From NCBI RefSeq assembly GCF_028885415.1, contig NZ_CP118527.1, positions 5,022,001 to 5,086,000 on the forward strand: 64,000 bases of DNA, given 5' to 3'. The notes under the pieces are model-generated. The model had not been told where the DNA came from. It ran no database searches and saw only the letters and a program-made list of their open reading frames with translations. Within the stretch, counting starts at the first letter, position 1. Every line of letters begins with the position of its first letter. Made by a program: the position numbers and the translations under genes. Below, piece by piece: positions 33,193 to 44,980 of the stretch. Origin of the DNA: Streptomyces coeruleorubidus (GTDB taxonomy: Bacteria; Actinomycetota; Actinomycetes; Streptomycetales; Streptomycetaceae).

Positions 33193-33278
33193 GCCACCAG
33201 CGTGAAGTCATGTGGTTACTCTCGGCTACAGACCGAAATGAACGCCGCGCGGCGTTCGGACCTGGGGGTGACCGCTTC

Positions 33279-34127
33279 ATGCCCAACATCCGCCGACTCG
33301 ACCCCACCGCCTCGCCGTTGGACTACTTCGGCTCGGAGCTCCGCCGCTACCGCGAGAGTGCGGGGCTGTCCCAGAAGGAACTGGGGGACTGCATCTTCTG
33401 CACGGGCTCGCTGGTGGGCCAGATCGAGACGGCGCACAAGGTCCCGACCAGGGAGTTCGCGGAGCGGGCGGATGCGGCGCTGATGACGGACGGTTGTTTC
33501 TCGCGGTTGGTGGGGTTGGTTCTGCGGAGCCAACTCCCGGCCTGGTTTCAGGCCTATGCGGAGATGGAGGCGAAGGCGACCTACATCTCCACGTACCAGG
33601 CTCAGTTGGTGTACGGGCTGCTGCAGACGCCGGAGTACGCGAGGGCGGTGCTGGGTGCGCTTCAACCGGACAACCTCGACGAGTTGGTCGAGGCCCGGCT
33701 GGAGCGGCAGCGCCTCCTGCGGAAGGAGAAGCCGCCGCTGGTGTGGGTAGTGCTGGACGAGGCGGTGTTGTACCGGCCCATGGGCGGCCGGGAAGTGATG
33801 CGAAACCAACTGGCGCACCTGTTGCGTTTCCGGAACGAAAGGCGCTTGAAGATCCAGGTGCTGCCGTTCTCGGCCGGGGAGCACCCGAGTGTGCAGGGTT
33901 CCTACAACCTCCTGCGCCTCGATGACGACCCGGACATCGTCTACACCGAGGACTTTGTGCAAGGCCACATGACGGCCAATCCGGATAGTGTCAGCGAAGG
34001 TTGGCTCCATTACGATCAAGTGCGAGCTGCTGCCCTCTCGGTACGGGACTCGGCAGACCTGATCGCCCACGTGATGGAGGAGCGCTATGGAGACCAGCCT
34101 GCAGCTGAGGAGCGCGACGTGGCGTAA
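33279..34127 (+). CDS. XRE-family regulator with DUF5753 (WhiJ-like)
   Basis: 282 aa. A helix-turn-helix (about 17-75, LRRYRESAGLSQKELGDCIFCTGSLVGQIE) is followed by the DUF5753 domain (about 95-275, with TYISTYQAQLVYGLLQTPEYARAVL and VLPFSAGEHPSVQGSYNLLRL). WhiJ-like proteins repress developmental genes and are relieved by partner DUF397 proteins. ATG 33279 follows GGGGGTG. The downstream DUF397 gene begins inside this gene. Confidence 0.9.
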   Translation: MPNIRRLDPTASPLDYFGSELRRYRESAGLSQKELGDCIFCTGSLVGQIETAHKVPTREFAERADAALMTDGCFSRLVGLVLRSQLPAWFQAYAEMEAKATYISTYQAQLVYGLLQTPEYARAVLGALQPDNLDELVEARLERQRLLRKEKPPLVWVVLDEAVLYRPMGGREVMRNQLAHLLRFRNERRLKIQVLPFSAGEHPSVQGSYNLLRLDDDPDIVYTEDFVQGHMTANPDSVSEGWLHYDQVRAAALSVRDSADLIAHVMEERYGDQPAAEERDVA

Positions 34128-34287
34128 GTCGTCGTACAGCGGGAGCACCGGGGGCGATTGTGTCGAGGTCGCCGACCTTGGTACTCCCGGTGCCGCCATG
34201 CGCGACTCCAAGAACCCCGAGGCCGGCATCCTCACCGTCTCCCCGCATGCCTACGCGGCCTTCGTCGCTCACGTGGCCGTGAAGTGA
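34087..34287 (+). CDS. DUF397 protein, first copy
   Basis: 66 aa. WRKSSYSGSTGGDCVEVADL and the AMRDSKNPEAGILTVSP region are the DUF397 signature (BldB-related small proteins). It starts 41 bp inside the XRE gene, so expression is coupled. It presumably modulates the XRE repressor, as known for WhiJ/BldB-type pairs. Confidence 0.9.
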   Translation: METSLQLRSATWRKSSYSGSTGGDCVEVADLGTPGAAMRDSKNPEAGILTVSPHAYAAFVAHVAVK

Positions 34288-34475
34288 CTGCCGCGCCCGT
34301 GCGGAGCGAGTGGCGTAAGTCGTCGTACAGCGGCAACACCGGCGGCGATTGCGTCGAGGTCGCCGACCTCGGTGCTCCCGGCGTCGCCTTGCGCGACTCC
34401 AAGCAGCCCGAGGTCGGGATCCTCACCGTCTCTCCGGAGGCCTACACCGCCTTCGTGACCTACGTCAGCGCGTGA
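34284..34475 (+). CDS. DUF397 protein, second copy
   Basis: 63 aa from GTG 34284, which overlaps the first copy's TGA (GTGA). The WRKSSYSGNTGGDCVEVADL segment is nearly identical in DNA to the first copy, showing a recent tandem duplication. The last bases overlap the end of the convergent secreted-protein gene. Confidence 0.88.
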   Translation: MTAAPVRSEWRKSSYSGNTGGDCVEVADLGAPGVALRDSKQPEVGILTVSPEAYTAFVTYVSA

Positions 34476-36465
34476 AGACGAAGTACTTCCACGTGCCGTA
34501 CGTCGTCGTGTTGACGTTGTCACCCGACGTCGGGTCGATGTAGGACGAGCGGATCCGGAAGCGCGGACCGACCGGCGGCGTGCCGTCGAGCGTGGTCGCG
34601 TCCTTGCCGTAGCGGTCGAGGGCGAAGTACTCCGCGGCCGTGGTGCGCCACGCGCCGTCGGAGTAACGCTGGACCTGGAGCTGGTACTTGCGGCCCGGGT
34701 ACATGGACATCGTCGTGTTGTGGACGGGGTCCTTGGACTGGCGGAAGTAGAAGTACTTCTGGTTCCAGGCGGTCGCCGACTTGTAGTAGCCGCTCAGGGT
34801 CGTCGAGATCTTGACCCTGGTGTAGACCGAGTTGGTGACCGTCTTCGCGGCGTACCGCGTGTCGCCCGTGAACTTCGCGCTGACCTTCGTGTCACGGGTC
34901 AGGTGGACCGTCGCCGCGAGGTCGCCGGCCGAGTCGACCGTGCCCTTCTTCACCAGCGTGCTCGGCTTGTCGGAGCCGTACGGGTCGGCCCAGATCTCGA
35001 CCGTGCGGTTCTTGTACGTCGTGCCGAGGTGCGCGGTGAAGGTGACGTCACGGCCGTAGTCGTACACCTTGCCGTTGTTGGTCAGTGTCAGCGTGGTCGC
35101 CGTCTTCGCCACCGTCGTCGATGCCGAGGCCGTGGCGCCCGCGTGGTCGGCGTCGCCCGCGTACGTGACCGTGTACGTCACCTTGCCGCCGGCGGGCGGC
35201 GTGTCCGTGAAGGAGTACGAGCCGTCCGCGGCGACCGTCGCCGTGCCGAGCGGCTTGCCGGACGGGGACTCGTCGTCGGTGCGGGTGACGGAGACCTCGG
35301 TGGCCGCCGGGAAGGCCGCCGACGAGGACAGCCTGCCGGTGAGGGTCAGGGGCTTGGCGCGGGTGGCCGTGGCGGGGGCGTTCGCCGTGAGGGTGGTGGA
35401 CGTCTTGGTCGGGGCGTCGAGGATCCGCAGCGAGTAGACGTTGCTGTCGTTCTCCGAGATCGCGAACAGCTTGCTCTCGTCGGGTGCCCAGGCCAGACCC
35501 GCCGGGGCCAGGGTGTCGGCGCCGCTGCTGGTGCCGGTGTTGGGGAAGTCGTACTGCTTCAGCGGCGTCGAGGTGCCCGGCTTGAAGACGTGGACGTCCG
35601 GGTCGTACCAGGAGAAGGTGCCCGCCGCGACGTCGCCGTTCGGGGCGATGTCCACCGCGTTCGGGTAGGTGTTGGTGACGTACTTGCCGTCCGCGGACAG
35701 GTCCGTGAGCTTGTAGACCGCCTGGTAGTACGGGGCGCCGCTGGCCGTGACGACGTCCTTGCCGTCCGGCGTGACCGCGAGATCCTGGAGGTTGCCGCCG
35801 CCCGTGCTGCCCGGGTCGAAGGCGTACGCCGTACGGGTCGCCGTGCCGGAGGAGACGTCGTACACGGCGAGTTCGACCGGGCTCTGGCCGGGCGCGCCCG
35901 CGGCGAGCGTGCCCGGGGCGCCCGGGGAGGCGTCCAGGATCGGGGCCTCGTAGAAGGTGCGGCTGGTGTCCTGGCCCAGGGTGAGGCCCGGGTCGGTGGC
36001 GTTCGGGTCGAGGGAGCCGATGTTGCCGTTGCCGGAGGCGCCGTAGCTGAACCACAGCCTGCCGCCGGCCAGGGCGACGTACGCCGGGCCGGCGGCCTGG
36101 CCCGTGGACCAGCGGCGGGTCTCGGTCGCCGTGGCCGTGTCGATCGCGACGACCGCGGTCGCGTCGTGCACGGCCGCGTACAGGGTGCCCGAGTCGGGCG
36201 ACAGCTCCAGGCCGTGGACGCCGGGCAGCGAGCCGACGGTGCCGACGACCGTGCCGGCGTAGTTCGTGACGACGACCTGGCCGGCGGTCGGGTCGCTGAT
36301 GAAGACCCGCTGGTGGACCCCGTCGACGACGATGTCGCCGGTCGACTTCACGGGCAGGGGCGCGCTGGAGTCGGCAGCCGCCGACCCGGCGCCGGTCGCG
36401 ACGAGCGTGAGCGAGCCGAAGAGGACCGCGAGCGCCGTCGCGGCCGAGAGAGTGCGTCTGTGCAA
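34465..36465 (-). CDS. Secreted beta-propeller / Ig-like repeat protein
   Basis: 666 aa. A Sec signal (ALAVLFGSLTLVATGAGSAAA) is followed by a YncE/NHL-like propeller (about 35-345: VVVTNYAGTVVGTVGSLPGVHGLELSPDSGTLYAAV, AVDIAPNGDVAAGTFSWY) and by bacterial Ig-like domains of the Big_3 type (about 350-560: KTSTTLTANAPATATRAKPLTLTGRL, YTVTYAGDADHAGA). The end is Tyr/Lys-rich without anchor. It is probably a cell-surface or matrix protein; no enzyme motif seen. The start codon is TTG 36465. A 14-bp direct repeat stands in its promoter region. Confidence 0.8.
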   Translation of the reverse strand: MHRRTLSAATALAVLFGSLTLVATGAGSAAADSSAPLPVKSTGDIVVDGVHQRVFISDPTAGQVVVTNYAGTVVGTVGSLPGVHGLELSPDSGTLYAAVHDATAVVAIDTATATETRRWSTGQAAGPAYVALAGGRLWFSYGASGNGNIGSLDPNATDPGLTLGQDTSRTFYEAPILDASPGAPGTLAAGAPGQSPVELAVYDVSSGTATRTAYAFDPGSTGGGNLQDLAVTPDGKDVVTASGAPYYQAVYKLTDLSADGKYVTNTYPNAVDIAPNGDVAAGTFSWYDPDVHVFKPGTSTPLKQYDFPNTGTSSGADTLAPAGLAWAPDESKLFAISENDSNVYSLRILDAPTKTSTTLTANAPATATRAKPLTLTGRLSSSAAFPAATEVSVTRTDDESPSGKPLGTATVAADGSYSFTDTPPAGGKVTYTVTYAGDADHAGATASASTTVAKTATTLTLTNNGKVYDYGRDVTFTAHLGTTYKNRTVEIWADPYGSDKPSTLVKKGTVDSAGDLAATVHLTRDTKVSAKFTGDTRYAAKTVTNSVYTRVKISTTLSGYYKSATAWNQKYFYFRQSKDPVHNTTMSMYPGRKYQLQVQRYSDGAWRTTAAEYFALDRYGKDATTLDGTPPVGPRFRIRSSYIDPTSGDNVNTTTYGTWKYFVFTR

Positions 36466-36586: not shown

Positions 36587-39500
36587 TCATCGAGTGAAGG
36601 ACTGGGCGATGAGAGCCGCCAAGTCGTAGAAGGCCTTGCGGAGTTCGCCGTCCAGTCGGTCGAGGCGGGCTTCGCCCGTGTTGGCCAGGTAGGAGCTGTG
36701 GGGGATCGCCACGATGCCTCGGCACAGATGGCGCAGGTCGGCGTCGCGCTCGATGATGCCGTGCGGTCCGCGGGGCGCTCTTCCGACGGGCTGTGACTTC
36801 GAGACGACGAGGACGCTGCGCGCCAGCAGTTCCTTGTAGCCGAGCCCCAGCAGGCGGTTGAAATACTCCACCTGGGCTCCCGGGAGCAGGTGCGAGAGGG
36901 AGTCCACGACGAGGACGAGTTGGTCGGCCTGGCTCAGAACGGCGCGCTTGCTCTCGTCGAGGTCGGTTGTGTGGGAGTCGGTGATCAGGATCTCGTAGTG
37001 CCGCGCCAGGACGTCGCAGACCCGTCTCACCTGCTCCGGCGGTGGCGTGGGCAGGCCGACCAGGTCCGTCAGGACGTCCGCCCCCGAGTACATGGTGGAC
37101 ACGTAGGTGGCCAGGTCCCTGGGCGCGTTGATCCGGTCGAGGATGCGGATGAGCGCGGACATGCCCTGGCCCCGGTTCCGGTCCACCCGGAACCCCAGCG
37201 TGCCGCGCCCGGGGTCGGCGTCCACCACGATGGTCCGGCCCTGCCGCTCGACGGCGAAGACCGTGGCCAGGAGCGCGGCGACGGTGCTCTTGCCGGAGGA
37301 ACCCGGCACGCCGAGAACGGCGATCCTGCGGCAGGAGGGTACCCGCGTGGAGATCAGTTCGGATCTCGCCTGCGGGTCCATCGCGGCCACGAGCCTCCCG
37401 TCGTCCCCCTGCATGCCCAGGCGGGCGGCCAGTACCTCCGCCAGTTGCCCCGCGGTGGGCCGGCTGTCCGGAGACCTTGCGTCGCACGTCTCCAGCAGGG
37501 CCCTGAGTTCGTCGAGGTCCACCTCGGGTGCGAAGGCGATCAGGGCGGTGATGAGCCGTCCCAGCGCCTCGATGTCCGCGCCGAGGTCGTGTTCCGCCCC
37601 GTGCGTCGACCAGAACCAATCTGTCAGGAGCACGCTCCGGCCCAGGCATCGGACGGTCTGGGCGTCGATGTTCCCGTGCACCAGGTCGGCGCGGTGGCTG
37701 GTCTCGACTGCCTCACACAGGTGCCAGGCCAGCTCCAGGGCTGCGTCCGGTTCCAGGTCTTCACGAGCCAGGACCGTGGCCAGCGGCTCGGCCGGGACGC
37801 CGTCCGGCGAGTGCGGCGGGACCTCGGCGACCCAGGGCGGCGTGCCGTCGAGGTCGCTCGCGACGAGCCGGGGCGCGTACCGGCCGGCCAGGCGTCGCAA
37901 GGCGCGTTCCTCGGTGCTCAGAAAGCCCTGGAACCGGGTCTCGGCCGTGACGACGACGACCTCCGCACCACCCGGGTCCCGTCCGAGGAACTTGCGGCAC
38001 AGCCTGTCGTCGAAACCCCTGGCATGCACGGTGTACGGCCCGATGCGCCACGGGTCGCCCGACCGCAGCGGCCTCCAGACGCTTCCCATGCGCCGCTCCA
38101 GACTGCCGACGCCGAAACGCGCGGCCAGACGGGGGCCGATGGCCGCGAAGGCCCGGGTCGAGGACGGGATGCGTTCCTTGCCCTCGGGGTGGGCGAGCCA
38201 GGCGGGGAAGTCGGGCGAACGGCCCGCCAGTTGCTCCAGACGTGCGCTCACGGTCCTGCCGGTCTCCACGACGTCGGCCAGCGGTACGGCGTTGAGCAGC
38301 ACGTCGCCGATGTCGCTGTCGAAGTCGAAGAGCTGGTGCTGCGGCGGCAGGCACTCGCCCGGCGCCGCCGGAAGCGGGCGCAGCAGTCCGCCGAGGAACA
38401 CCTCGGCCAGATGAGGGGTGTCCGCCCAGGGGATGGCCGCCTGCACCAGCCGCATCACGGGCAGGGACAGGGGAGCGACTCCGGCCAGATGGGCTGCGAG
38501 CCGGTACGCCTCGGGGGTGGCCGCGGAATGGAAGCGCCGCAGCCTGGGCAGCCCCCTGTCGGCGGGCCGGGGCAGCCGCGGCCGGGGAGCGGCCAGCAGG
38601 GGCAGCGTGGCGGACGCGGCCGGGGCGGCCACCAGCCGCACCCAGGCGGAGAGCGCGGCCGGTGCGGGTTCCAGCACCGGCACGGGAACCCCGCGGAAGG
38701 ACATGACGTCCGGCGGCAGCACCGGATCGGTGACGACCCACTCGGCGTTGGCCGAGCCGCGTCGTCCGCTGAAGACCTGCCAGCGCTGGGCGCGCAGGCC
38801 CGAGCCGCCCCACATGCGGGGCGGGAGCGCGTGCACGACCGCGGTCGGGCCGCACCGGGCCCAATCGCTCAGCGTGCTGTGCATGCGGCCGTCGCGCCAG
38901 GCCCGGCCCACGCCGTCGCTCACCAGGAGGACCAGTGTCCGGCCCGTCGGGTCGGCGACCAGGTGCGTGGGCATCCGGTTCGCCTCGTCGGAGAAGGGCC
39001 GTCCGCGCAGGTACACCTCGTCGCCCCGGGTGTGCAGTCCGTAGGTGCGGATCATCCGGAAGGCGCCGGCCCGGCGCAACAGGGCGTGCAGTTCCGTGGC
39101 GAGGCGTTGCCACAGCAGCATGGACATGCCGTCGTCGACGACCAGAGCGAGGTCGAGCCAGCGCTCCGGGGCCGGCCGCAGCACCACGTCGGGCAGCCCG
39201 GTCTCCGCCAGGGCGTTCACGGTGGCCTCCTCGTCGAAGTGGTAGCGCGAGGTGCTGGGGCGGGACTGCTTCAACGGCCTCAGGACTCGGCCGATGAGCA
39301 GTTCGTCGGCCAGGGCCTTGGCCTCGGGCACGCGCAGTGGCATCGCCCGCGTCTCCTCGGCCTGGGGCGTCACGGCCGGTGGCGCGGTTTCCGGTTCGGG
39401 GACGGAAGCGGTGGTTTCGGGTGCCGGGCGGGACTTCAGCCCGGGGCCGCCGAACAGACCGGCCTCGCCCCCGGGCGCCTCACGCGGCCTGCCCCTGTCG

Positions 39501-39694
39501 GACTCGGCCGTGGTGGGCGGGACGTCGGCCCGGGGGGTGGCGTCCCGGTGGAGGGGCAGGGTGTCGGGGGTGCCGGTCAGCCGTCGTGCCAGCCATAGTG
39601 CGTCGAGCAGTTCCTCCTGGGAGAGGCTGACCCCGCAGTCGGCGAGCACGTCCAGCGCGAACCGGAGCTCGAACCCCGCGGTGTCCCCGGGCAT
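36587..39694 (-). CDS. SAV_2336-type fusion: vWA-like, pseudokinase and MinD-like NTPase
   Basis: 1035 aa. Residues 1-45 match the SAV_2336 N-terminal domain; a low-complexity linker follows to ~115. A vWA-like domain (about 178-345) has a degenerate MIDAS (VDDGMSM). A kinase-like region (about 560-740) has VHGNIDAQTV where HRD-x-x-x-x-N would be and LTDW in place of DFG, so it is a pseudokinase. Residues 780-1035 are a SIMIBI/MinD-like NTPase with Walker A GVPGSSGKST, VVDADPGRG and LVVDSLSH. The ATG abuts the TGA of the MoxR gene. The protein looks like the output or assembly hub of the trypsin-MoxR operon. Confidence 0.8.
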   Translation of the reverse strand: MPGDTAGFELRFALDVLADCGVSLSQEELLDALWLARRLTGTPDTLPLHRDATPRADVPPTTAESDRGRPREAPGGEAGLFGGPGLKSRPAPETTASVPEPETAPPAVTPQAEETRAMPLRVPEAKALADELLIGRVLRPLKQSRPSTSRYHFDEEATVNALAETGLPDVVLRPAPERWLDLALVVDDGMSMLLWQRLATELHALLRRAGAFRMIRTYGLHTRGDEVYLRGRPFSDEANRMPTHLVADPTGRTLVLLVSDGVGRAWRDGRMHSTLSDWARCGPTAVVHALPPRMWGGSGLRAQRWQVFSGRRGSANAEWVVTDPVLPPDVMSFRGVPVPVLEPAPAALSAWVRLVAAPAASATLPLLAAPRPRLPRPADRGLPRLRRFHSAATPEAYRLAAHLAGVAPLSLPVMRLVQAAIPWADTPHLAEVFLGGLLRPLPAAPGECLPPQHQLFDFDSDIGDVLLNAVPLADVVETGRTVSARLEQLAGRSPDFPAWLAHPEGKERIPSSTRAFAAIGPRLAARFGVGSLERRMGSVWRPLRSGDPWRIGPYTVHARGFDDRLCRKFLGRDPGGAEVVVVTAETRFQGFLSTEERALRRLAGRYAPRLVASDLDGTPPWVAEVPPHSPDGVPAEPLATVLAREDLEPDAALELAWHLCEAVETSHRADLVHGNIDAQTVRCLGRSVLLTDWFWSTHGAEHDLGADIEALGRLITALIAFAPEVDLDELRALLETCDARSPDSRPTAGQLAEVLAARLGMQGDDGRLVAAMDPQARSELISTRVPSCRRIAVLGVPGSSGKSTVAALLATVFAVERQGRTIVVDADPGRGTLGFRVDRNRGQGMSALIRILDRINAPRDLATYVSTMYSGADVLTDLVGLPTPPPEQVRRVCDVLARHYEILITDSHTTDLDESKRAVLSQADQLVLVVDSLSHLLPGAQVEYFNRLLGLGYKELLARSVLVVSKSQPVGRAPRGPHGIIERDADLRHLCRGIVAIPHSSYLANTGEARLDRLDGELRKAFYDLAALIAQSFTR

Positions 39695-40645
39695 TCAGAT
39701 TGTCCCGCCGAGCCGGTGCAGTACGGCCTCCAGCAGTCCGTCGGCGTCCAGGTCGACCCCGCCGGCGCGCAGGAACACCGCGTTGAGCAGTTGGTCCGTG
39801 GCGAGTCCGCCGCGCTGCTGGCGTCGCAGGAAATCGTCGAGCAGATCCTGGACATCGGCTGCCGCCGCCTCGCCCAGGTGGGCCAGGACGATCTCCCGCA
39901 GGCGCTGACTGTCGGGCGGCGGCAGTTCGAGCCGTACGCATCTGCGCAGGAACGCGGGCGGGAAGTCGCGTTCCCCGTTGCTGGTGATCACCACGACGGG
40001 GAACTCGTCGCACCTGACCCGCCCCCGGGTCACCGTGATCCGGGTGTCGGGGTCGGCGGACAGCACGTCGACCACGGACTGGTCCTCGGGCAGCCGGGCC
40101 AGTTCGGGGATTTCGTACTCGCCCTCCTCGAAGACCGTGAGCAGGTCGTTGGGGAGGTCGACGTCGCCCTTGTCCAGTTCGTCGACGAGCAGGACGCGCG
40201 GCAGCGGCCGGGGCACCATGGCGGTGCCGAGAGGGCCGAGCCGGACGAAGGTGCCGATCTCTGGCTCCTCGCGTTCCTGGTCCCGGGTCAGGGCGGTTTC
40301 GCGCAGCCGGCCCACGGCGTCGTAGCGGTAGAGGGCCTCGCTCACGGTGGAGCGGCTGTTGACAGGCCAGTGCAGGACCTCCCCGAGCCGGAGTTCGTGC
40401 GCGATGGCCCGGGCCAGGGAGGACTTGCCGGTTCCGGGCTGGCCGGTGACGAGCAGGGGGCGGCGCAGGTGCAGCGCGGCGTTGACGACGTCGGCGTGCC
40501 CGGGGGAGATGAGGTAGGGGGCCGCGCTCGTGCCCGACCGCCGGCCGTCGCCGAAGCGGCGCCAGGGCGGGGCGGGCGGAAGGTGGTCGATGCCCCGGGG
40601 AACGCCGTCCCCCCGGAAGAGCCGCCAGGATGCGTCGGATGTCAT
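39695..40645 (-). CDS. MoxR-type AAA+ ATPase
   Basis: 316 aa. Walker A GQPGTGKSS (about 66-74), Walker B VLLVDELDKGD, sensor 1 TSNGERD and the arginine-finger region FLRRCVRLELPPP are present; the C-terminal lid follows. MoxR ATPases act as chaperones that remodel vWA-containing partners, and such a partner is encoded immediately downstream. The ATG overlaps the trypsin stop (ATGA), so all three are translationally coupled. Confidence 0.92.
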   Translation of the reverse strand: MTSDASWRLFRGDGVPRGIDHLPPAPPWRRFGDGRRSGTSAAPYLISPGHADVVNAALHLRRPLLVTGQPGTGKSSLARAIAHELRLGEVLHWPVNSRSTVSEALYRYDAVGRLRETALTRDQEREEPEIGTFVRLGPLGTAMVPRPLPRVLLVDELDKGDVDLPNDLLTVFEEGEYEIPELARLPEDQSVVDVLSADPDTRITVTRGRVRCDEFPVVVITSNGERDFPPAFLRRCVRLELPPPDSQRLREIVLAHLGEAAAADVQDLLDDFLRRQQRGGLATDQLLNAVFLRAGGVDLDADGLLEAVLHRLGGTI

Positions 40646-42804
40646 GCGAGCTCCTCCGAGGGGTCGTCGAGGTAGAGGTCGTCGGGCAGCGGGCCGTTGT
40701 CGTCGGACCAGGCCAGCACGGGTCGTCCGACGTGCACGTCCGGTTCGTTCCAGATGCCTCTGCGGTACCGGCGCACCTCGTGGGGCAGCGCCGCGGGGGG
40801 AACGTCGGCGAGCCGGCTCTCGGCATGCGTCCAGCCCTTCTCGCCCCGTCCGAACAGCACCACGGGCATGCCCGCCGCGAGGCAGTACTGCACCACGACC
40901 TCACGGAAGGCGGGGTCGACCTCTCCTACCACGGCGCCGACGGCGTCCATCTCACCCGCGAAGCGCCCGTAGATCTCGTCGAGACTGCCGACCGAGGCAT
41001 CGATCCGCACCAGGACACCCCGGTACAGGCGCCTCTTCCGCTCCCGGAGGAACTCCGCGTCGGTGCCCTGCTCGACCAGCTCCGGGCAGGTGAACACGAC
41101 GGGGAAGTCCACCCCGAGGGTCCGGTGCGTGTTCAGCGGGCCCGGGGCCTTCCACCAGTGGGGATTCAGATCCAGATCCGCACGGTCCAGGAGCAGTTCG
41201 ACGATGGGCAGGGTGCCGGTCCGCCACAGCAGGGAGGCGGCGGTGAAGATCTGCGCGGCCGTCCCGGTGACGTCCCGGATCTGCCCCTCGTCGGAGTGGA
41301 CACGCTGCCATGACGTCGTCTCGCGTCGCCACATACGCAGGGTGTAACGGCAGCTGTCTCCCTCACCGTCGACCCGCCTCAGGCGCACCAGCAGCCGCGG
41401 CGCGTTCCGGTTCGGCGCCCGTAGCCGCCCCGCGTGCTCCCTGGCCAGCGCCAGCCGCTCCGCCAGCGCCGCTCGGTGCCCCTGGGTGCGCCGGACGACT
41501 GTGTCGCACCAGCTGACCAACGGGGTCGCGAGGTCGTCGGGTGACGCGGCGGCGACATGGAGGACGAAGCAGACCAGAGCGGGCAGCAGCGGGCTGCTCG
41601 GCTGCTCGGTCGCGGGAGCGCGACGGCTGCGTTCCAGCTGGTCGAGCAGCGCTTCCAGGGCGCCGGAGGCCGCGTCCGGATCCAGCCAGGCCTCATCGGT
41701 GAGCACGGCGGCGGGGAGGTCGATGTCGGGCAGCGCGTCGAGGACGAGAGCGGGGATGGAGGCGGTGATCCCGTGCGGCAGCGACTCGAGCAGGGCCGTC
41801 AGATGTTTCCGCTCGGTTTGGGTGAGCAGCGTGCTGTGCGGGATTCGCGCGCCCACGTCCAGGAGTTCCGCTACGGCACCGGGTTTGGTCGCGAACAGCA
41901 CGTGGGTGAGCTCGGCCAGGGCACGGGGATAGGTGAGCAGCACGCGTGCGAACTCCTCCACGGACGGTGCGGAACGGTCGTCGGGGTGGGCCAGGCCGCA
42001 CTTCCTGGCCACCTCACGGCCGCACTTGGCCAGCGCCTTGGGGGTGTCCACCTTCCGGTTCAGGATGTTCGCGAGGTCGAAGGCCTCGCTCGAGGTGTCG
42101 GGTTCTTCCGAGTCGTGCGGGGCGTCGAGCAGGTGCGCGGCGCCCGCGGCGGCGAGTTCCTCGCGGACGCGCTGGGTGGGCAGGAACCAACTGCGGCGGC
42201 GGACCTGGTCGGGATGGTGGGCTCGTTCCTCGTCCCCCTTGAGCTGCGCCACGACCATGCCGACGACGGCCCGGTCCTCGGCGAACCAGACCGGGCCGCC
42301 GCTGTAGCCGTGCTGAATGGTCGCTCCGCTGTCGCTGCCGTCCACGACGGCGAACGCGAATTCGGGGTCGACCGCCACCACCTTGCTCCGGGCCAGAGAG
42401 AACTCGGGCCGCCCCGCCGGATGCCAGGCGCAAACGGGCAGTCCCTCGGTGACCGGCCGCCACGGGGGCGGTACGAGGTTCGGTGGTAAGCAGCGCAGGA
42501 GTTCGAGTACGGCCAGATCGCCCTTCCAGTGCAGCTTCGTCCGCTCGCGTACCGGTATCCAGACCATGACCCGCGCGTCCTGCCAGTGGCCATCGACCCG
42601 TACACACAGGAGGGTCTTCTTGCCGGGGTGCGCCGCGTCGTACTTGTCCTTCCTGCCCAGGGCCAGGTTGACGACGTGTGCGGCGGTGAGGACGCGGCTG
42701 CCGGGCAGCAGGACGCCGGCGCCGACGCTGCCTCTTTTCCCGGAGCGCGGGAACACGGAAACGGTCGCCGGGCGGGACGGGCCCGGCGAGGAGAACCACG
42801 GCAA
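40642..42804 (-). CDS. Trypsin-like serine protease with VMAP-type C-terminal region
   Basis: 720 aa, no signal peptide, so probably cytoplasmic. The trypsin domain (about 10-215) has an intact triad: His43 in LTAAHVV, Asp96 in KGDLAVLEL and Ser168 in HGYSGGPVW. A middle helical effector-associated domain (about 240-400) and a C-terminal VMAP-like region (about 440-720, ending with VLAWSDDNGPLPDDL) follow. In predicted conflict systems VMAP proteins link a protease to a MoxR-vWA machine. The TTG start at 42804 is nine bases after the Trypco1 stop, with AGGGCG before it; a GTG at 42756 is an alternative. Confidence 0.85.
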   Translation of the reverse strand: MPWFSSPGPSRPATVSVFPRSGKRGSVGAGVLLPGSRVLTAAHVVNLALGRKDKYDAAHPGKKTLLCVRVDGHWQDARVMVWIPVRERTKLHWKGDLAVLELLRCLPPNLVPPPWRPVTEGLPVCAWHPAGRPEFSLARSKVVAVDPEFAFAVVDGSDSGATIQHGYSGGPVWFAEDRAVVGMVVAQLKGDEERAHHPDQVRRRSWFLPTQRVREELAAAGAAHLLDAPHDSEEPDTSSEAFDLANILNRKVDTPKALAKCGREVARKCGLAHPDDRSAPSVEEFARVLLTYPRALAELTHVLFATKPGAVAELLDVGARIPHSTLLTQTERKHLTALLESLPHGITASIPALVLDALPDIDLPAAVLTDEAWLDPDAASGALEALLDQLERSRRAPATEQPSSPLLPALVCFVLHVAAASPDDLATPLVSWCDTVVRRTQGHRAALAERLALAREHAGRLRAPNRNAPRLLVRLRRVDGEGDSCRYTLRMWRRETTSWQRVHSDEGQIRDVTGTAAQIFTAASLLWRTGTLPIVELLLDRADLDLNPHWWKAPGPLNTHRTLGVDFPVVFTCPELVEQGTDAEFLRERKRRLYRGVLVRIDASVGSLDEIYGRFAGEMDAVGAVVGEVDPAFREVVVQYCLAAGMPVVLFGRGEKGWTHAESRLADVPPAALPHEVRRYRRGIWNEPDVHVGRPVLAWSDDNGPLPDDLYLDDPSEELA

Positions 42805-42813
42805 GTCGGCGCC

Positions 42814-43251
42814 CTAGACGACGGTGCCCTGGCCGGGGGCGGCCGCAACGACGTTGTCCGGGACGGGCCGCCAGGTCGCCGAGACCTTCAGGCTGCTCGC
42901 GCTGTTGACGCCCACGATGCCGAGCTTCAGGTCCTGCCCGAGCTGGAGGCCGAACTCGACGCTGAACTCCTGTGGCGGGTCATCGACCGAGGTGACGGTG
43001 GCGTGGACCTCCCGCAGGAGCGGCCCGAGGGGGCTCAGCGCGCCGCGCACGGTCCCGCCGACCAGCACCCGCGCGGCATCGCGCAGCCGGCCCACCGGCT
43101 CCGCGCCCCGCATGCCGTCCGGCACGTCCTCGAACTCCCCGTACTCCTCCGAGTCCGGCTCCTGGCCGTCGGCCTGAGGTCCCCCGACCGGCGACAGCTC
43201 CAGGCGTATCACCGTGCTGTCGTCCAGCAACAACTCCGCGTATTGCGTCAT
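42814..43251 (-). CDS. Trypsin co-occurring domain 1 protein (CU044_2847 family)
   Basis: 145 aa. It starts YAELLLDDSTVIRLELS, has an acidic linker, and ends with EFSVEFGLQLGQDLKLGIVGVNSASSLKVSATW, the Trypco1 (CU044_2847) fold made mostly of strands. These small proteins are found next to trypsin-like effectors and are thought to recognise a trigger or regulate the protease. First gene of the four-gene operon on the minus strand. Confidence 0.88.
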   Translation of the reverse strand: MTQYAELLLDDSTVIRLELSPVGGPQADGQEPDSEEYGEFEDVPDGMRGAEPVGRLRDAARVLVGGTVRGALSPLGPLLREVHATVTSVDDPPQEFSVEFGLQLGQDLKLGIVGVNSASSLKVSATWRPVPDNVVAAAPGQGTVV

Positions 43252-43636: not shown

Positions 43637-44980
43637 ATGGGGGAGCGTGACGATCCGGGGACCATCGGCCGTCGGGTGCAGCGGTTGCGTGTCGAACGCG
43701 GGCTGACGCAGCGGCAGTTGGCGGAACCCGTGTACACCCCCGCCTACGTCTCCACCCTGGAGTCGGGCCGGGTGCGGCCCTCCGACGACGCCCTGCGGCA
43801 TCTCGCCGGACGGCTCGGCGTCGCCTTCGAGGAACTCGCCACCGGGCGTTCGGCGCGGCTCGTGACCGAGCTGCGGCTGCGGCTGACCGAGGCCCAGCGC
43901 GTCTTCGCCGTCGGTGAGGCCGAGGCGGCGGCGGAGCAGTACGCCGGGTTACTCGTCGAGGCCGAGACGCAGGGGCTGGCCGGGGAACAGGCCGCCGCGC
44001 TGCTCGGGCTCGGCGAGTGCGCCCTGGAGACGGGCGAGCTGGTGGCGGGGCGGCAGTATTTCGAGCGGGCCGAGGGCTGTCTGGCCGGCGCGCCGCTGCC
44101 CGCACGGGTCCCGGCGCTGCGCGGGCGGGCCGTCGCGCACTACCTCGCCGGTGAACTCCGGTACGCCGTCTACCTGCTGGAGACCACCCTCGATGAGCTG
44201 AACCGTGGTGGGCTGCACGACCCGGACGCCCTGCTGCTGCTCTACGCCAGCGCCATCGGGCCGTACATGGACATGGGCGCGCACGCCCGCGCCGCCCAGG
44301 CCGCCGAGTTCGCCCTGGCGCTCGCCCCGCGGTCCGGCGACCCGGCCCTGGTCGCGCGCATGCACCGGTCGGTCGCCCGCACCCTGGTCGCCGAGGGCCG
44401 CCTCGCCGAGGCCGATGCCTCGCTGGCCAAGGCGGCCGAGCTGTACCGGGGCCTGCGGATCCGCACCGAACTCGCCAACTGCCACTGGATGCGCGGCTAC
44501 GTCTACGCCCAGGACGGCCAACTGGAGCTGGCCGAGAGCGAGTTGCGGGAGGCCCTCGGCATGCTGTCGGCCAAGCGCGCCGCCCTCTACAGCAGCCAGG
44601 TCGCCGTCGAACTGGCCGACGTGCTCCACCGGCGCGGCAAGTCCGACGAGGCGGCGGCCCTGCTGCGCGAGGTGCTCGACGAGCTGTCCCCCGAGCGCGG
44701 CGCCGTCCACTCCGCCGCCGCGCACCGCCTGCTCGGCATCATCGCCGAGGACGCCCGCCGGACGGAGGAGGCCGAGGAGCACTACGTCCGCGCCCTGAGC
44801 CTGCTGGAGCGGGCGGGCGCCGCCGGTGACCTGGCCGACCTGTGCCGCCTGCTGGGGGACCTGCTGCGGCGCACGGGCCGGGTGGAGGCCGCCCTGGACG
44901 CCTACCGGACGGGTCTCGGGCACCGTACGGCCCCCGGTACCACGACCCTCGGGCCCGCGCCCGCACAGCCTCCTCTGTGA
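43637..44980 (+). CDS. XRE-TPR transcriptional regulator
   Basis: 447 aa. An N-terminal XRE helix-turn-helix (about 8-63, RVQRLRVERGLTQRQLA ... AYVSTLESGRVRPS) is fused to about eight to nine TPR-like helical pairs (75-430). The architecture equals that of peptide-binding RRNPP regulators (PlcR, Rgg, ComR). The ATG at 43637 follows GAGGGACAGGGGGG. Its only close neighbour is the divergent small exported peptide. Streptomyces has many such proteins with unknown ligands. Confidence 0.9.
   Translation: MGERDDPGTIGRRVQRLRVERGLTQRQLAEPVYTPAYVSTLESGRVRPSDDALRHLAGRLGVAFEELATGRSARLVTELRLRLTEAQRVFAVGEAEAAAEQYAGLLVEAETQGLAGEQAAALLGLGECALETGELVAGRQYFERAEGCLAGAPLPARVPALRGRAVAHYLAGELRYAVYLLETTLDELNRGGLHDPDALLLLYASAIGPYMDMGAHARAAQAAEFALALAPRSGDPALVARMHRSVARTLVAEGRLAEADASLAKAAELYRGLRIRTELANCHWMRGYVYAQDGQLELAESELREALGMLSAKRAALYSSQVAVELADVLHRRGKSDEAAALLREVLDELSPERGAVHSAAAHRLLGIIAEDARRTEEAEEHYVRALSLLERAGAAGDLADLCRLLGDLLRRTGRVEAALDAYRTGLGHRTAPGTTTLGPAPAQPPL

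Follow-up and report, generated by a model that had tools for sequence, protein, structure and literature searches.

The closest described relatives of the operon analysed here are the VMAP ternary systems, which were predicted from genome comparisons (Kaur et al., 2020, eLife, PMC7159879). In the sections of that paper devoted to them, the genes follow the order VMAP, MoxR, vWA. The VMAP proteins carry a VMAP-C domain, their middle regions are classed as VMAP-M0 to M28, and Trypco1 or Trypco2 frequently stands beside trypsin-VMAPs. The MoxR ATPases bear the N-terminal motifs WxhapG and PsWRxa. The vWA domains, mostly with the two aspartates of the metal ion-dependent adhesion site (MIDAS), are preceded by a helical extension with the motif [D/E]xxx[D/E]xxxa. 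Where the hub, i.e., the vWA protein, has an S/T/Y kinase domain, a MinD/ParA or winged helix-turn-helix (wHTH) domain tends to accompany it at the C-terminus, and the MinD/ParA domains are predicted to be inactive. The operon considered here lies in a window of 64,000 nucleotides from Streptomyces coeruleorubidus (RefSeq assembly GCF_028885415.1, contig NZ_CP118527.1, positions 5,022,001 to 5,086,000). Its kind is thus already described. New are this particular member and a P-loop retained in its hub, which departs from the published generalisation.

Further systems share some of these components. The ternary systems linked to diversity-generating retroelements (DGR) have MoxR, a vWA protein and a trypsin-VMAP in common with the operon, as described in the pertinent part of Dore et al. 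(2024, PMC10907252). Unlike these, our hub has no CLec/FGS domain among its Pfam matches; a retroelement was not looked for in the flanks. Another study mentions, in one part, ternary systems in the neighbourhood of type III CRISPR loci (PMC10910872). The possibility of a named defence system was rejected, as the matches in PADLOC were all partial and did not exceed 27.7 bits. MoxR-vWA chaperones of the NorQ/NorD and RavA/ViaA type share the MoxR and vWA pair and the MIDAS; to our knowledge they have no VMAP, protease or variable hub C-terminus.

A four-gene operon of the VMAP type

The operon comprises four co-directional genes in the order Trypco1, trypsin-VMAP, MoxR, hub:

42814..43251, minus strand: Trypco1 protein, 145 amino acids (aa), Pfam PF19493 over residues 40-128
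40642..42804, minus strand: trypsin-VMAP protein, 720 aa, TTG start, with trypsin-like domain, variable middle and VMAP-C
39695..40645, minus strand: MoxR-clade AAA+ ATPase, 316 aa, with the VMAP-system N-terminal motifs WRLFRG and PPWRRF
36587..39694, minus strand: vWA hub, 1035 aa, NCBI name SAV_2336 N-terminal domain-related

A gap of 9 bp separates the Trypco1 stop from the TTG of the trypsin-VMAP gene, the junction to MoxR is an ATGA overlap, and the MoxR TGA directly abuts the ATG of the hub. None of the four frames contains an internal stop; the start codons, including the TTG, are predicted. A first-pass annotation of this DNA, made from the letters alone, had described the same reading frames and the same three junctions, and rightly so. 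The translational coupling suggests coordinated synthesis of the proteins. The fixed stoichiometry which the annotation read from it is unsupported: MoxR hexamers are expected, and how many vWA units go with one ring is described as unclear where Kaur et al. deal with it (PMC7159879).

It is almost certain that the operon is a VMAP-type ternary conflict system as defined by Kaur et al. (2020, PMC7159879). It shares with these the gene order VMAP, MoxR, vWA, the VMAP-C domain, a Trypco1 beside a trypsin-VMAP, the MoxR motifs, the MIDAS, and a hub that ends in kinase and MinD/ParA domains. None of the defining features that were examined speaks against membership; the type of the VMAP middle region and the N-terminal motif of the hub gave no clear match. 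Thus, the earlier assignment to the predicted NTP (nucleoside triphosphate)-dependent ternary conflict systems is borne out by domains, by motifs and by a gene order which recurs across loci.

The conservation of the components was examined in alignments of relatives, admitted above 60 bits for Trypco1 (41 of 42), 600 bits for the trypsin-VMAP (30 of 35), 400 bits for MoxR (30 of 30) and 500 bits for the hub (30 of 31, with the hub of Streptomyces violaceus entering as two pieces). In MoxR, which matches AAA_5 with 36.5 bits (Pfam cut-off 22), the Gly and Lys of Walker A, the Asp and Glu of Walker B, the sensor Asn and two finger Arg are present in all 30 relatives. W, F and G of the first motif, WRLFRG, are invariant in 30/30. 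So is PPWR of the second, PPWRRF, in which Pro takes the 's' position of PsWRxa and the final aromatic residue is kept in 27/30. No PDB sequence matched MoxR. Its identification as MadB was rejected, with 63.6 bits against NF047784 versus a cut-off of 475.

The Trypco1 protein matches PF19493 with 58.0 bits (curated Pfam cut-off 24.6) and the NCBIfam family CU044_2847 with 45.0 bits (cut-off 23). Its AlphaFold model consists of two strands, helices and two further strands, at a mean predicted local distance difference test score (pLDDT) of 62.6 and a predicted template modelling score (pTM) of 0.45. The model has no Foldseek match at E <= 0.001, and the protein no profile match in PDB. In the relevant passages of PMC7159879 the domain is known only as trypsin-linked. 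With this, and a low-confidence model that matches no solved fold, the label "recognition-type" of the first-pass annotation finds no support.

Protease and composite hub

The trypsin-VMAP protein contains a trypsin-like domain (Trypsin_2, PF13365, 42.2 bits versus a Pfam cut-off of 27.6) and the following further features:

42301..42303, minus strand: codon of the catalytic Ser168 (GYSGGP)
41464..41814, minus strand: middle region, with a weak VMAP-M0 (PF19916) match of 13.5 bits, below the cut-off of 25.9
40702..41349, minus strand: VMAP-C domain, residues 486-701, PF20028 with 87.7 bits, cut-off 27

The catalytic triad, which had been claimed to be complete, indeed is: H43, D96 and S168 are invariant in 30/30 aligned relatives. 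Ser168 is followed by Gly (30/30), Gly (28/30) and Pro (30/30). In trypsins, Asp194 is the residue of classical zymogen activation. Here the residue preceding Ser168 is Tyr or Phe in all 30 relatives, so Asp194 is missing. Residue 162, which takes the Asp189 position by a count of six residues back from the Ser and not by structure, is Ala in 16, Thr in 4 and Asp in 2 of the 30. We infer that "trypsin" in trypsin-VMAP probably names a fold, not a preference for Lys or Arg. No PDB sequence matched the protein.

The hub contains the following parts, with the retained P-loop in the last of the domains:

38831..39154, minus strand: vWA core, residues 181-288, with MIDAS residues D187, S191 and D260; predicted secondary structure, pLDDT of the block 52-84
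37400..38050, minus strand: pseudokinase domain (PknB fold), residues 549-765; no beta3 Lys, HRD reads HGN, DFG reads DWF
36590..37342, minus strand: MinD/ParA-like domain, residues 785-1035
37283..37312, minus strand: retained P-loop GVPGSSGKST, residues 795-804; the signature Lys of KGGxGKT is absent

The 1035-residue vWA-like hub of the first-pass annotation stands as far as the N-terminal half is concerned: the protein matches SAV_2336_NTERM (NF041121) with 374.8 bits (NCBIfam cut-off 200), and D187, S191 and D260 are kept in all 29 alignment rows with letters there, out of 30 rows in total. The C-terminal pseudokinase and MinD/ParA domains had been overlooked. The putative vWA assignment rests on the motif, the secondary structure and the published family. 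No vWA chain is among the 50 structural matches listed, which barely cover the hub outside residues 550-762, and the comparison with PDB sequences gave no vWA match. At the N-terminus the hub reads E27, D31 and W34; the aromatic residue is one short of the spacing of the published motif, and position 27 is not conserved.

Active Ser/Thr kinases are recognised by the beta3 Lys, the Asp of HRD and the Asp of DFG. In the alignment the beta3 region of the hub kinase reads VVVVTAE, without Lys. The Asp at the DFG position is kept, and some members of the subclade retain the HRD Asp. Judged by these residues, the hub kinase is degenerate.

Different is the situation in the MinD/ParA-like domain. In structure comparison, hub residues 786-1034 match the ParA/MinD ATPases 3ea0 and FleN (5j1j). 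The deviant Walker A of ParA/MinD proteins carries a signature Lys, KGGxGKT. Fold and P-loop Lys are shared by the hub and these ATPases, as are the Asp residues of two more motifs; the signature Lys is absent from the hub. The P-loop Lys is kept in 8 of the 9 proteins of this hub's subclade, and the signature Lys is lost in 9/9. Of the other hubs, 0/15 have the P-loop Lys in an alignment of 19 hub rows picked for C-terminal similarity, and 0/8 in the alignment with the subclade, two sets which may overlap. In keeping the P-loop Lys and both Asp the domain departs from the account of Kaur et al. (2020), in which such domains are predicted to be inactive. Because these residues are kept and the signature Lys is lost, the domain could in this lineage be a nucleotide-binding switch, not a dead decoy, binding ATP without canonical ParA hydrolysis. 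We consider this unlikely. If true, the hub would add to MoxR a second step gated by nucleotide. Two hubs might, e.g., dimerise with ATP bound, and displacement of the partner by an invader might release the protease.

Two observations on related proteins are added. The same genome encodes a 1304-aa protein (locus L083, 6183-10097, minus strand) which ends in a MinD/ParA domain with a canonical KGGVGKT; possibly it belongs to the family in which the MinD domain of the hub originated. In a draft genome of S. violaceus the hub is split over two overlapping frames (locus L041, 13294-16495), and a 1035-aa hub is on record for the species (P0035). The split is either a draft error or a strain difference.

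Distribution, shared inheritance and surroundings

The closest named relatives are proteins of Streptomyces. With this Trypco1 as query, 37 of 121 genomes of the genus gave matches, at 41 places in total, with the window's own among them. The stretches around the other 40, the window and a single locus from S. violaceus make up the 42 loci examined. All four genes in the same order and on the same strand are present at 30/42 loci, corresponding to 29/41 places in the 121 genomes; one locus (L063) is counted as full though only 126 aa of its hub are on the contig. Homologues usually occurring apart had been named as one outcome that would speak against the operon; the search was run, and this is not what is found. 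The remaining 12 loci divide into four partial ones, of which one is cut by a contig end and three have Trypco1 beside a different trypsin-containing protein, and eight with a Trypco1 but no detectable relative of the other three genes, where trypsins may be too distant for the profile used. At three loci (L044, L060, L061) the Trypco1 scores 144-155 bits, as high as in the operons, yet no trypsin-VMAP, MoxR or hub relative was detected in the surrounding stretch.

These numbers concern one type of Trypco1 only, since the protein search missed the sister Trypco1 at 3.09 Mb in the same genome. The whole Pfam Trypco1 family is found in 96/121 genomes of the genus and in 1/14 controls (Methanosarcina acetivorans), so it also occurs elsewhere. 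VMAP-C is present in 101/121 genomes and 0/14 controls.

Do the modules evolve together? Tree distances of six modules were compared over 28 of the 30 full loci, leaving out L041 and L063 with their split or contig-cut hubs. Patristic correlations are 0.88-0.95, and the Mantel p is 0.001 for each of the 15 pairs, which is the floor of 999 permutations; the permutation leaves shared species history in. Within the 15 loci with kinase-MinD hubs the distance correlations are 0.72-0.96, with Trypco1 the loosest. This shows that the modules share one history; the correlations indicate co-inheritance, not contact.

The genome, one contig of 9.41 Mb, has three VMAP-C genes, and besides the window operon it has two further systems with different hubs. 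The system at 3.09 Mb consists of Trypco1, trypsin-VMAP, MoxR and a hub with a HAD-type match (21.7 bits, below the cut-off of 26.4), that at 7.43 Mb of an EAD2-VMAP, MoxR and a hub with NB-ARC and TPR. Of another six hubs that were scanned, one is without a Pfam match; Schlafen-type helicase, BTAD/NB-ARC and kinase-fold plus TPR ends occur among the rest. At locus L069 (6112-10974, plus strand) the VMAP-system hub carries a fused helicase domain of Schlafen group 3 type (274.9 bits). By these domain matches, hub C-termini are variable on a conserved core, and they differ within one genome as described for VMAP systems in the corresponding part of PMC7159879. With the contig taken as a linear chromosome, the window copy at 5.06 Mb is unlike the VMAP systems of Kaur et al. 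in being away from the preferred points at about 33% of the chromosome, and the sister copy at 3.09 Mb does sit at such a point.

The operon as cargo of a mobile element was rejected: no phage or viral-contig relatives were found, and the plasmid scan gave a single partial record (17% of the query covered, 70.6% identity). Specifically, the trypsin-VMAP had no match in phage records, and the hub no relative in viral contigs with six patterns scanned. A scan of genome contigs with the trypsin-VMAP gave one relative. The genes may move by ordinary recombination.

On the far side of the hub, an HTH_31/DUF5753 gene (33210-34127, plus strand) is followed by two small proteins (34087-34287 and 34158-34475, plus strand) with the CxE and RDS motifs which Kaur et al. 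give for DUF397, an assignment based on these motifs. In their account (PMC7159879), about 4% of VMAP systems have linked DUF397 genes. In S. violaceus (L041), too, the hub is followed by a related HTH gene. Between hub and HTH cassette, 34465-36465 (minus strand) encodes a protein with a signal-like N-terminus and Big_3_5-like repeats (32.7 bits, below the cut-off of 35.5), which, at a threshold of E 1e-10, matched nothing in the other loci searched. Just upstream of Trypco1 lies a divergent HTH_3 and TPR gene (43637-44980, plus strand). At the same threshold a homologue in this position, on the opposite strand, was found in S. violaceus (L041) and at no other locus searched.

How the system may work

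We propose, at a probability of roughly 45%, that the hub is the bait, MoxR the relay and the protease the output. At rest, vWA hub, MoxR ring and trypsin-VMAP with its Trypco1 partner would form a complex. The C-terminal half of the hub, pseudokinase plus altered MinD/ParA, would mimic a PknB-like kinase and a ParA/MinD ATPase of the host. An invader protein, presumably of a phage, would touch this half; the contact would be relayed via the MIDAS and ATP-driven remodelling by MoxR to VMAP-C, which would switch on the trypsin-like domain, and proteolysis of the hub or of host proteins would result. That the hub senses and the VMAP peptidase acts has been proposed in the pertinent part of Dore et al. 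(2024, PMC10907252). We lean to it because the protease and MoxR alone appear to be fully equipped for catalysis, and because the ends of the hub resemble altered host proteins. With beta3 Lys and HRD Asp missing from the hub kinase, and no ParA signature Lys, the operon shows no other likely toxin. The variation of hub C-termini on a conserved core is likewise counted for a bait.

Several points weigh against this proposal. Kaur et al., where they treat function, assign sensing to the VMAP and the output to the hub (PMC7159879). The changed residues near Ser168, as read from the alignment, tell us nothing about the activation of the protease or its substrates. The PADLOC library gave only partial, low-scoring matches, and no relatives appeared in the phage scan (trypsin-VMAP) or the viral-contig scan (hub); with these outcomes an antiviral role rests on published argument. 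No experiment on a VMAP system was found in the Creative Commons (CC)-licensed literature of PubMed Central (PMC).

Somewhat less probable, yet a serious competitor, is the model of Kaur et al. itself. Here the VMAP would sense the invader, MoxR would remodel, and the trypsin domain would cut the hub. The freed pseudokinase-MinD half would then act as a dominant-negative or decoy against the invader or against cell-division and kinase functions of the host. The model is published for just these components, and hubs with kinase and MinD/ParA domains are described in the same paper (PMC7159879). It would also accommodate the joint between vWA and pseudokinase. Parts of it, within residues 502-538, have a pLDDT below 50 although residues 496-540 are among the most conserved stretches of the subclade, as could be the case in a regulated joint. 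However, a low pLDDT carries little weight when 17 sequences underlie the model, and the prediction has short helices at the joint. Further, no cleavage site is visible in the hub, and with the residues found at position 162 the P1 preference may not be trypsin-like.

It is improbable that the operon serves housekeeping or development and not defence, as a MoxR-vWA chaperone accompanied by a processing protease, e.g., a chaperone that remodels cell-division ATPases in hyphal growth. MoxR-vWA pairs elsewhere are assembly chaperones, RavA/ViaA being named in PMC7159879, VMAP-C is widespread in the genus, and the near absence of phage, viral-contig and plasmid relatives fits such a role. On the other hand, close homologues are patchy, with Trypco1 of this type in 37/121 genomes, and several non-equivalent copies per genome with exchangeable hub C-termini are as in conflict systems. 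A chance arrangement of the four genes, or the decay to a remnant which a pseudokinase and a partly degenerate MinD domain might suggest, has next to no probability with an ordered set at 30/42 loci, invariant catalytic residues and uninterrupted frames; chance neighbourhood was rejected on the ordered set.

VMAP-C is common in the genus, yet the literature searched held no VMAP experiment. The locus is compact and combines a complete protease and a complete ATPase with a hub kinase that is degenerate; point mutations could therefore tell the two published models apart. Its retained P-loop is a concrete case that departs from the published prediction that the MinD/ParA effector domains of these systems are inactive.

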